From positions 868,001-932,000 of the forward strand of contig OX637631.1 in the NCBI GenBank assembly GCA_951802195.1: DNA of 64,000 bases, given 5' to 3'. Positions 35,583 to 64,000 of this stretch are shown here, one piece after another. Source of the DNA: Tausonia pullulans (lineage: Eukaryota; Basidiomycota; Tremellomycetes; Cystofilobasidiales; Mrakiaceae). Each line of letters starts with the position of its first letter. Within the stretch, counting starts at the first letter, position 1. The translations under genes were made by a program, and so were the position numbers. The notes beneath the pieces were generated by a model. That model was not told the DNA's origin. It ran no database searches and saw nothing but the letters and a program-made list of their open reading frames with translations.

Positions 35583-35602
35583 CACTCAATTCAGGTGATG
35601 TT

Positions 35603-35680
35603 TCCGAGCAACCTCGGTTCGAGTCCGGGCACTGCCTTACAAGGCGGTGTAGTATAGATGGTTAGTACACTCGGTTCTGA
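35603..35680 (+). tRNA. Circularly permuted tRNA-Gln(CTG): 3' half precedes 5' half
   Basis: The 3' half (35,603-35,637) and the 5' half (35,643-35,680) are in reversed order, separated by TACAA. Put together they make a faultless tRNA. The acceptor is GGCGGTG/CACTGCC (one G-U pair), the D arm GTAT/GTAC with loop AGATGGTTA, the anticodon stem CTCGG/CCGAG (five Watson-Crick pairs), the loop TTCTGA plus T (anticodon CUG), the variable loop CAAC, and the T arm CTCGG-TTCGAGT-CCGGG. The invariant residues T8, A14, G18, G19, A21, T33, A37, G53, TTCGA and C61, and the G15-C48 pair, are all present. The break is at 37/38, the usual tRNA intron site. The B box (GGTTCGAGTCC) lies upstream of the A box (TAGTATAGATGG). 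No second acceptor strand fits outside this unit. The sequence matches yeast tRNA-Gln(CUG) closely in the anticodon and T arms. Confidence 0.9.
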
Positions 35681-35688
35681 GCAACTAC

Positions 35689-35693
35689 TTTTT
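35689..35693 (+). terminator. Pol III terminator (TTTTT) after the 5' half of the permuted tRNA
   Basis: Five T begin 8 bases after A37 of the 5' half. The other two tRNA genes in the window also have five T just past their ends. Its place after the 5' half, not after the 3' half, fits one transcript covering 3' half, linker and 5' half. Confidence 0.75.
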
Positions 35694-47206: not shown

Positions 47207-47294
47207 AGACTCCTGTGGGGATCGAACCCACGAACTCCTGCGGTCGGATTCCATGTTGTCGGAAGCAGACGCGATACCACTTCGCCAAGGAGCC
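47207..47294 (-). tRNA. tRNA-Arg(CCG) with a 16-nt intron
   Basis: On the minus strand the acceptor GGCTCCT pairs with AGGAGTC (one G-U). The D stem is GCGA/TCGC with loop AGTGGTA. The anticodon stem TCTGC/GCAGG flanks TTCCGA, then a 16-nt intron (CAACATGGAATCCGAC) at the canonical 37/38 position, then C38. The anticodon is CCG. The variable loop is AGTTC and the T arm is GTGGG-TTCGATC-CCCAC. All lengths add to 88 nt. Five T (minus strand, 47,198-47,202) follow the 3' end. A LINE array starts about 70-87 bp upstream of its 5' end, on the other strand. Confidence 0.9.
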
Positions 47295-60914: not shown

Positions 60915-63900
60915 CTAGGCGCTGTCCGCTGAGGATGAGTGCGACGCTGGGTGACCGTGAACGCGGACCTGGAGAAGAGGGAGAGCAAGCATCAGAACTG
61001 CACGCCAAATAAGGGAGCAAACATGGAAGATTCTCACCCTGTAGAGACACGTGTAGCCATCGCCATAGTTGCTCCGCACCCGAACGACGACGATCCCCGT
61101 CTCGACTCCGAGCGCAGCAAACGCCTCGGGCACAGAAAACGTCTGCATGTGCTCCGGGCGATCGAGGTCGTAGACAAATGAGCCGAGAAGGACGTGTTCC
61201 GAAGAGGGCGCCAGCGACGTGACGGCCTCCGTGGGTGGTGCGGTTTCGGCAGGCTGGCTCTTGAGGTATTCGGCGACCACCTCGCGGTCCCGGGCGTTCT
61301 CGACGATGGCCCAGACTAGGTGACGAGAGAAAAGTGGTGGTGGGATTAGTGAACGAGACTCAAAAGTTCGAGAGAAATGAAGAAACAAACCTTCGATCTG
61401 GCGCGGAGCGGCGGCAAGGTCGAAGGTGACATCCCGAGCGGCGTGCTCGATGGTGACATTGGTGACAACGATGGGCCGGGCGAGACGGATGCCGAGCTGG
61501 CCCTGCGAGCCAACGAACGGCCAGCAGGTTCCGACGCTGATGTCGGGCGTGAGGGCCGTCGCGGGAGGCCGACCGCTGATGGTCTTCTGACCGACCCAGC
61601 TGCGCCAGCCGGTGAGCCTGCGCTCATAAGTGTCGGTCGTGATGGACGGGATGACTCGCCCCCCGGCGGAGAAGAGGGCGTAGTCCGTCATGGCGAGGAC
61701 GTCCTTCGAGTACCGGAGAAGAGCAGCGTCGATCATCGCCTGGACACGGGTTGAGAGCTCGTCGCTCGTAAGAAGGGACGCTTGTCTGCCGCTGCCCGCC
61801 TTCGAGGTGGCAGCGGCCCTGGTAACCATTTCCTCTCCTAGCTGACGGACCTCAGTGTCGACCTTGGTCTCAAAGTCGAGCTTGAGCTGATTGAGCTCGC
61901 GGTGAAGGAGGTCAAGGAATGTCTTACGCGAGACAACTGCCCCTGTGTCCTCTTTGCGGCCGAGCTCGTCCTCGTTCCAAGCACGGAGGGCATCCTCGTT
62001 CGAGGCGATGAATTCACGCCACGACGGAACGCGCGTCGCACCGGCCGACGGGCTCGACTTGAGCGCAGGTGCGAGAGTGGCAGCCTCCTTGGCGACGAGA
62101 TCCCCGACATGGGCCTTGTCGACAAAGACGTTCTTCATCGCCCGCCAGAACGCCGGATCCACGTCGAGGGCGCCCGTCTTGGGGTTCATCTTGACCACGA
62201 GTTTGGCCGGGAGGTACGACTCAATCGCCTCGGTCGCTATCTGTGCGATCAGCTTCGACTGGGCGGCGGCCTTCGCAGCTTGCTCCGCTTGAAGGACGCG
62301 GTCACTGAGATTCTGGAGCTCATGCAGGACCAGGCCGGCGCCGTCCGTGAGGTTGGCAATGATCTGACGATCCGAGTCGCCTCGCGTATGAACGTCCTTG
62401 ACCCGATCCGTGAGAGCCTCCATATCGCTACGGATCGAGCCGACGACTCGGTCGAGGGAGGAGAGGCGTTCAACAAGCTCGTCCATCGAGTCAGGAGGGA
62501 GCTGGGGGCTCTTGTAGGTGGGCAGAGCGTCCGATCGGCCAAAGGAGATGGAGGGCATCCAGGAGGTCGAGGACTCGACGCCATCCAAAGGCTGAGGTTG
62601 GTCGAACCACAGCGCGGCCTGGCGGAGGAGGAGGGCCGCTGCGATCGCCCAGAAGAGGCCGCTCCATTTGGCATTGCTGAGCGAGCGTTGGACGCTGCCG
62701 AGGGCGCCCGCGATGGAGTGGTAAGCGAGAAGGAAGACAAAGATGAGTGACCGGAGGAGCGACTTGATAGCGTTCGTTGCGAGGCCGGCCAGGCCTGTAC
62801 CTTCAGGCTTGGAGTGCGGTGGCAGTGACGACAGAGCGGTGGCAGCCACGCGCTTCTTCCCCTTGGAGGCGACCTTCTTCTCGGCTTGCCCTGCCCGTCG
62901 CTGGACATCAACGACGTAACTCTCGTCCTCCGCCGTGTCAGGAGCTGCAGAAAGATCGACTGTGACGCTGTCGTCATACGGGATCTTCTCGTTCTCCTCG
63001 TAAACTTCCTCTTCTGCCGTTGGCGGCGCGACAACGATGTCATCCCCGTCGTAATTATCGTCGATGTCGTCCCCGCTCTGGTTGGCAGCGCCCTTCTTGC
63101 CCCTGGCACCCTTCTTCCCCTTGCGCTTCTTGCCCTCCATCACAGGTGCCATGCCTTCGGCGCCGAGCCGCTGGCCGCTGAGGGACTTGCGCTTCGGCCG
63201 GCGCCTCCTCCCACCGTCGCCGTCCGACTCGGAGCCTGAGGATCCGCTTTCACCAGGCCGGTACTTGAAGGCCTGGTTGTCGTGTGAGATGCGGCTCTTC
63301 CGTCGAGCTGTTGACTTGGTCACCTTGGAGTCGGACGCCCCGAGGTCGTAAGCGTCGGAGTCCTCGGAGGAGAGGGAGGAACTCGTGTGGGCATCTTCCT
63401 CATCGTGGTGATCCTCGGGCGCCGGCTCGTACGTGGCGGCGTCATCCGTCGAGGGAACATTGGCCTGTGAGGGCGAGGAGCCCGAGGTCGCTGATGGTGC
63501 TCCAGCCTTCGTGATCCCCCCCGCCTCGAGTGTGGCCTTGGAGGCCGTAGGTCGGGCAAAGCCAGGGAGAGCCGAGAGCCAGCCATTCCCTGCACTGCTC
63601 GCTGCCGGCGCGTACGCAACCGCTTTGCCCTTCTCCAGCTGGGCTCGCCTCTTCTCCTCGATCTCCTGCATCAGCCGCTCCTCCTCCTCAAAGCGGTAGC
63701 TCTCCTCAGCCGAAGCCCCGAAGCTCTGGCTTGAGTCTGCCCCTCCGCCCGTGGCCGTCGTCGCCGAGAGGAATGACATGTTCTGCTGCTGCTGGCGGCC
63801 TCCTCTACCGGGCGAGAGTGCCGCTGCGAAGCTCTGAAAGCCCATGTGCTGCGAGTCGTCCATCTCCTCATCCTCCGGAAAGACGTCGTTGTGGACGCGG

Positions 63901-64000
63901 ACCTTTGGCTTGAGCAGATAGCTCACGGGGCTGAGAGCGCGTGCCCGCCCGGCGATCGCATCGAGGATGGGCGACTTCGCTCGCTCACGACGGTCCTGGG
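60915..64000 (-). CDS. SUN-domain nuclear-envelope protein (5' end beyond the right edge)
   Basis: SUN proteins span the inner nuclear membrane and pair with KASH proteins to link nucleus and cytoskeleton. The frame is open to the right edge (reading RRERAKSPILDAIAGRARAL before YLLKPKVRV), so the start lies outside. The N-terminal half is acidic and disordered with basic clusters (RRRRPKRKS and KKRKGKKGARGKK, likely nuclear signals). Two hydrophobic helices follow: SLLRSLIFVFLLAYHSIAGA and LFWAIAAALLLRQAALWF. A coiled coil comes next (ELVERLSSLDRVVGSIRSDM to LQAEQAAKAAAQS). The SUN domain starts near ALFSAGGRVIPSITTDTYER and has PDISVGTCWPFVGSQGQLGI, VTNVTIEHAARDVTFDLAAA, VLLGSFVYDLDRPEHMQTFS and VVVRVRSNYGDGYTCLYR. 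Introns split the end; the last exon encodes VRVHGHPASHSSSADSA-stop. Confidence 0.93.
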   Translation of the reverse strand, partial: QDRRERAKSPILDAIAGRARALSPVSYLLKPKVRVHNDVFPEDEEMDDSQHMGFQSFAAALSPGRGGRQQQQNMSFLSATTATGGGADSSQSFGASAEESYRFEEEERLMQEIEEKRRAQLEKGKAVAYAPAASSAGNGWLSALPGFARPTASKATLEAGGITKAGAPSATSGSSPSQANVPSTDDAATYEPAPEDHHDEEDAHTSSSLSSEDSDAYDLGASDSKVTKSTARRKSRISHDNQAFKYRPGESGSSGSESDGDGGRRRRPKRKSLSGQRLGAEGMAPVMEGKKRKGKKGARGKKGAANQSGDDIDDNYDGDDIVVAPPTAEEEVYEENEKIPYDDSVTVDLSAAPDTAEDESYVVDVQRRAGQAEKKVASKGKKRVAATALSSLPPHSKPEGTGLAGLATNAIKSLLRSLIFVFLLAYHSIAGALGSVQRSLSNAKWSGLFWAIAAALLLRQAALWFDQPQPLDGVESSTSWMPSISFGRSDALPTYKSPQLPPDSMDELVERLSSLDRVVGSIRSDMEALTDRVKDVHTRGDSDRQIIANLTDGAGLVLHELQNLSDRVLQAEQAAKAAAQSKLIAQIATEAIESYLPAKLVVKMNPKTGALDVDPAFWRAMKNVFVDKAHVGDLVAKEAATLAPALKSSPSAGATRVPSWREFIASNEDALRAWNEDELGRKEDTGAVVSRKTFLDLLHRELNQLKLDFETKVDTEVRQLGEEMVTRAAATSKAGSGRQASLLTSDELSTRVQAMIDAALLRYSKDVLAMTDYALFSAGGRVIPSITTDTYERRLTGWRSWVGQKTISGRPPATALTPDISVGTCWPFVGSQGQLGIRLARPIVVTNVTIEHAARDVTFDLAAAPRQIEGLFLHFSRTFESRSLIPPPLFSRHLVWAIVENARDREVVAEYLKSQPAETAPPTEAVTSLAPSSEHVLLGSFVYDLDRPEHMQTFSVPEAFAALGVETGIVVVRVRSNYGDGYTCLYRVRIFHVCSLIWRAVLMLALPLLQVRVHGHPASHSSSADSA

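Follow-up and report, generated by a model that had tools for sequence, protein, structure and literature searches.

Circularly permuted tRNA-Gln(CUG) genes, probably functional, in the basidiomycete fungus Tausonia pullulans

The window analysed here, a 64,000-nucleotide stretch of the genome of the basidiomycete Tausonia pullulans (positions 868,001 to 932,000 of contig OX637631.1, assembly GCA_951802195.1), contains a tRNA-Gln(CUG) gene in which the 3' half of the tRNA is placed in front of the 5' half. The gene, consisting of the 3' half, a linker and the 5' half, spans positions 35603-35680 of the forward strand, and its B box precedes its A box. All 21 copies of this tRNA gene detected in the genome, the window gene and 20 more, are permuted at the 37/38 junction. 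The best reading of these loci is that they are functional type II circularly permuted tRNA genes, whose transcripts would mature via a circular pre-tRNA; we put the probability of this reading at about 0.92. The proposal that a fungus carries a permuted tRNA-Gln(CUG) gene was first made in a sequence-only reading of the window, and the uniform arrangement of the 21 detected copies supports it as the best explanation.

The elements of the window gene follow one another on the forward strand. The last stretch of the putative transcript's 5' leader (35583-35602) is followed by the 3' half (positions 38-73 of the tRNA, with the T arm and the B box; 35603-35637), the linker TACAA (35638-35642), the 5' half (positions 1-37, with the D arm, the A box and the anticodon CTG; 35643-35680), the 3' trailer GCAACTAC (35681-35688) and the run TTTTT (35689-35693), the presumed terminator of RNA polymerase III (Pol III). 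These assignments were made from the sequence, supplemented for the two halves by ARAGORN on the joined halves and by a covariance model, and for the T run by a survey of the permuted genes. When the halves are joined at 37/38, ARAGORN calls a tRNA-Gln(ctg), in which the acceptor stem has 7/7 pairs (one G-U), the D stem 4/4 (one G-U), the anticodon stem 5/5 and the T stem 5/5 (one G-U). The coordinates and pair counts that the sequence-only reading had given are correct. In its native order the gene is reported neither by ARAGORN nor by Rfam at gathering scores.

When the genome was searched in full at the DNA level, with the joined tRNA as query, 42 pieces were returned, 21 of them five-prime and 21 three-prime. 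The pieces form 21 close pairs, each on one strand with the three-prime piece upstream, and there are no extra unpaired halves. The detected halves do not lie at separate loci, as those of split tRNA genes would. The genes are distributed over seven contigs, nine of them on contig C18, and have differing flanks, and it is therefore unlikely that the permuted order is a slip of the assembly. Fifteen of the 21 copies, the window gene included, are identical in all 73 positions; the other six have the D and anticodon arms common to the family and different acceptor stems. All copies retain the anticodon, U73 and the complete cloverleaf, and CCA is not encoded after position 73. The linkers are 29 nt long in nine genes, 8 nt in four and 46 nt in two, and 4, 5, 7, 11, 23 and 24 nt in the remaining single genes.

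The sequence-only reading had proposed a genome search for ordinary tRNA-Gln(CTG) genes as a check. No copy in ordinary order was detected in the whole-genome DNA searches with the joined tRNA and with an acceptor-stem variant, which a strongly diverged copy could escape. A similar search with tRNA-Lys(CUU) served as a control. It produced 66 candidates, of which 40 were scored, and gave 25 Lys loci, every one of them in the usual order and carrying an insert of 24-31 nt at 37/38; 24 of these were recovered in a single piece, the other in two colinear pieces. The order of an ordinary intron-containing gene, with the 5' half first, is therefore found at 25/25 Lys loci and in 0/21 Gln copies. 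Of the glutamine codons in a 1003-aa reading frame of the window, 31 are CAG and 6 are CAA.

A second isoacceptor is also permuted. A tRNA-Thr(UGU) gene with a 53-nt linker lies on the reverse strand at G000:C2:1549210-1549338 (L037:3210-3338) and was identified with a rotated covariance model and a permuted-tRNA scanner. One of its D-stem pairs is unmade. It is present as a single copy, the permuted one, in a similarity search of the genome. This gene surfaced in a 10-kb piece of the genome retrieved for an unrelated purpose, so the genome likely contains more permuted isoacceptors. Taken together, there is a good chance, although a smaller one than for the permuted genes as such, that the main Gln codon is decoded wholly via permuted genes, at least 21 in number, which, like the only Thr(UGU) gene found, would have to be matured through RNA circles that a fungal tRNA ligase closes, with Pol III reading the B box before the A box.

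The two detection methods differ in what they were given. The permuted-tRNA scanner for the 37/38 layout was designed once the window gene was known. It counts 21/21 pairs in the window gene, as in the Gln genes generally, and 20/21 in the Thr gene. On 355,550 bases (overlaps included) all of its hits are permuted Gln or Thr genes, and 24 Mb of order-1 Markov sequence with matching dinucleotide composition, scanned on both strands, gave five hits, four at 18 pairs and one at 19. The rotated covariance model was trained solely on nine hand-rotated ordinary tRNAs of the same genome. It found the window gene, unseen in training, with a score of 42.5 bits (E 9.2e-11) and recovered all 21 Gln genes, none of them in the training set, among 37 sources. 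Half-matches to ordinary tRNAs score up to 37 bits with this model, so that the score alone is indecisive and both halves were required. Among its 133 matches, 22 are the permuted Gln and Thr genes. Eleven of the others were inspected and each proved to be half of an ordinary tRNA; none of the matches left after these 11 was accepted by the scanner.

The halves are conserved to a greater extent than their surroundings. The copy at C12:826874 matches the window gene at 73/73 positions of the halves, in 3 of 6 columns of the linker, and in 66 of 112 columns upstream and 75 of 110 downstream (flanks of 100 bases each). In eight further chosen pairs of genes the halves agree in 73/73 positions in seven and in 70/73 in one, and the linkers and flanks vary from near identity to strong divergence. 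An alignment of the 21 Gln genes (14 distinct rows) has 294/294 cells paired and none unpaired. Four acceptor-stem pairs, whose two bases lie on either side of the linker, are changed in both bases, in 15 cells altogether. The observed share of paired cells was matched in 0/500 shuffles, and so was the observed covariation score (0/500). Mutated halves in sister species, together with several ordinary genes, had been named as a finding that would speak against a working gene; in this genome the halves are either identical or changed with compensation.

These observations bear on the explanation that survives best among the alternatives, namely that the loci are non-functional relics, left by tandem arrays of tRNA genes or by the insertion of circular tRNA copies, and that ordinary genes elsewhere make the tRNA. 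A tandem array is indeed expected to leave the permuted order behind, and an ordinary copy may hide in the genome, as the DNA search recovers diverged halves unevenly and RF00005 was scored on the best 63 of 897 candidates. Relics would have to account, however, for the permuted order of every detected copy, for the lack of any surplus unpaired half among the 42 pieces, for compensatory changes in place of unpaired cells, for the conservation of the halves but not of the linkers and flanks, and for a T run behind each of the 22 permuted genes. We regard this explanation as very improbable.

In 22/22 permuted genes a run of four or more T's starts 8 to 18 nt after position 37, against a background of 0.032 such runs per 20 nt; the TTTTT that the sequence-only reading had taken for a terminator behind the 5' half is one of these. 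Of the distinct ordinary genes, 57/67 have a T run no more than 22 bases past their end. No T4 occurs inside the body of any permuted gene, which is a weak point, the background being 0.85 per 100 nt.

The loci could also be expressed with the two halves made or trimmed separately and then joined in trans, like split tRNAs, without any circle. The halves do meet at the splice site, and nine of the 21 Gln genes are on a single contig, C18. On the other hand, in all 22 pairs the halves share strand and order and are separated by 4-53 nt, there is no T4 within a gene body, and lone halves were not seen in the genome search. Even with the lack of an internal T4 counted as weak, these features argue for a single transcript and an intramolecular join, and joining in trans appears slightly less probable still than the relics. 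That the main product is a small structured RNA or an RNA circle rather than a tRNA is the least probable of all, for although a stable circle is a predicted intermediate, all 21 Gln copies retain the anticodon, U73 and the entire cloverleaf, and the genome searches detected nothing else that could supply tRNA-Gln(CUG).

Parts of the machinery by which permuted tRNA genes would be matured via a circle are encoded in the genome. Pieces of Sen2 and Sen34 were found, and they match the solved structures of these subunits of the splicing endonuclease. The RNA_lig_T4_1 domain, which we take to mark the fungal tRNA ligase Trl1, is matched by four pieces, three of them above the cut-off. The maturation may be pictured on the model of the algal pathway, as summarised in PMC3978253; the transcription start, the cutting, the circle and the end cutting are all steps that we infer. 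The transcript is probably closed into a circle by the cell and reopened to yield a working tRNA. The linker would connect the ends of the acceptor stem within the circular pre-tRNA, and the 3' trailer, GCAACTAC in the window gene, would be removed at position 37. According to PMC3978253, eukaryotic endonucleases measure from the mature domain, and this fits junctions at 37/38.

Several results weigh against functional permuted genes, or against the strength of the evidence for them. The number of pairs with double changes was matched in 134/500 shuffles, and the number of further pair types in 498/500. The compensatory changes of the acceptor stem are confined to two related variant forms and therefore represent few independent events. 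With the variant query the search recovered the five-prime piece at all 21 loci but the three-prime piece at only 10 of the 21; being patchy for diverged halves, it could miss a strongly diverged ordinary tRNA-Gln(CUG). A Gln(UUG) gene was not matched in the genome with a yeast query, and queries from yeast or Neurospora for iMet and Pro likewise gave no match; there was no positive control for any of the three, and these negatives are uninformative. A T4 is present in the 60 bases upstream of 2/22 permuted genes. A TATA-like motif occurs in 0/17 distinct 80-nt stretches upstream of the permuted genes (and upstream of 4/67 ordinary genes). The genome encodes the TFIIIC subunit Tau95, which normally works with an A box ahead of a B box, as stated in PMC3978253. 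Lastly, the pairing of the leader with the anticodon loop and trailer, sought as a bulge-helix-bulge at the junction, does not exceed the level of shuffled sequences in 19 distinct genes (Fisher p 0.66-0.70).

Eleven ordinary introns of the same genome gave no signal in a similar pairing test (p 0.44), so that the test has little power. A match to the B-block family is present in the genome and means little, because the same family also matches 8/14 prokaryotic controls. Constrained folds of leader, gene and trailer paired differently in different genes and were set aside. The conserved core of the 3' half has no exact match in the viral contigs and bacterial and archaeal genomes scanned.

In the nine permuted Gln genes on contig C18 (L009, L010, L012, L014, L016, L017), a few types of leader occur together with a single 29-nt linker that varies slightly. 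They look as if they had been duplicated, and partly converted, in the permuted form.

Ordinary tRNA genes are found both in the window and elsewhere. The one at 47207-47294 of the window (reverse strand) is labelled by ARAGORN with a four-base anticodon (ccga), and its sequence, read by eye, suggests a tRNA-Arg(CCG) interrupted at 37/38 by a short intron. Ordinary tRNA genes are densely clustered at L038, at L041 on contig C6 and at L042 on contig C2, the clusters comprising genes for Lys, Asn, Glu, Ala, Asp, Ser, Val and Leu; L038 and L041 have near-identical gene orders running in opposite directions. Eight identical intronless tRNA-Trp(CCA) genes were found (L001-L008, on contigs C1 and C15), and two further loci share their tRNA score.

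Some protein-coding genes were also compared with their relatives. The window encodes a SUN-domain (Sad1/UNC) protein in a frame of 1003 aa (60918-63926, reverse strand), which is 42% identical to a protein of Mrakia frigida, the sole organism-named match of six. It also encodes an Hse1-like protein; among the best 120 of its 126 relatives, 11 of the 12 with an organism name are from basidiomycetes and one is from a cuttlefish, and the best organism-named match is Naematelia encephala (40%). Contig C21 of the assembly (18,821 bases, of which L039 is the first 10,000) is a small mitochondrial contig with reading frames in table 4. Its cytochrome b is at most 67% identical to the best 120 of 7998 relatives, and those of them that have an organism name are nine basidiomycetes at 61-64% and one Penicillium at 52%. 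Among these relatives, Mrakia and Naematelia point to the Tremellomycetes, the class of T. pullulans itself.

To our knowledge, permuted tRNA genes have been known only from some unicellular algae and an archaeon. No fungal case was found in a literature search covering titles and abstract openings of open-licence papers. The type II permuted tRNA gene is an already known kind of gene, and what appears to be new relative to the literature searched is that the host is a fungus, that the gene has multiplied to 21 copies and that these seem to have taken the place of the ordinary form. If the genes are functional, opisthokonts would, as far as we know, have their first permuted tRNA genes, and the multiplication of a permuted form to the point of displacing the ordinary one would be without precedent. 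A whole permuted isoacceptor family in a fungus would show that such genes can originate and spread in opisthokonts. The natural variants, with linkers of 4-53 nt and different leaders, could be useful for learning what the endonuclease, the ligase and Pol III each require. The genes are also a warning for annotators: run with introns permitted, ARAGORN found no nuclear tRNA-Gln among loci that include six of the permuted copies.

The closest known counterpart is the system of Cyanidioschyzon merolae, whose type II (37/38) permuted genes include Gln(CTG) with a 31-bp intervening sequence, as described in PMC3978253. The two systems share the 3' half placed first, the 37/38 junction, a linker length of similar order, the T run after the 5' half and the lack of an encoded CCA after position 73; the same Gln isoacceptor is permuted in both, and Thr isoacceptors as well. 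The genes described here differ in belonging to a basidiomycete, in comprising 21 copies of one isoacceptor, all with the 37/38 junction, and in having no TATA-like element while Tau95 is present.

The other comparisons rest on PMC3978253 unless stated otherwise. In prasinophyte green algae and the nucleomorph of Bigelowiella natans the junction is at 37/38 in 20/21 of the genes listed there, with 5-64 bp intervening, which resembles the present genes; those genes are mostly for Ser, Leu, Cys and iMet, belong to algal lineages and number one or two per anticodon and species, compared with 21 here. The archaeon Thermofilum pendens has the same permuted order, but the junction is at 59/60 and CCA is encoded. 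In the green alga Auxenochlorella, according to PMC12633428, nuclear permuted tRNA genes were missing from the authors' initial tRNAscan-SE set, much as the genes of T. pullulans are passed over in their native order. According to the 2014 review PMC3978253, eukaryotes with introns at 37/38 could plausibly carry permuted tRNA genes, yet most do not; T. pullulans would be one that does.
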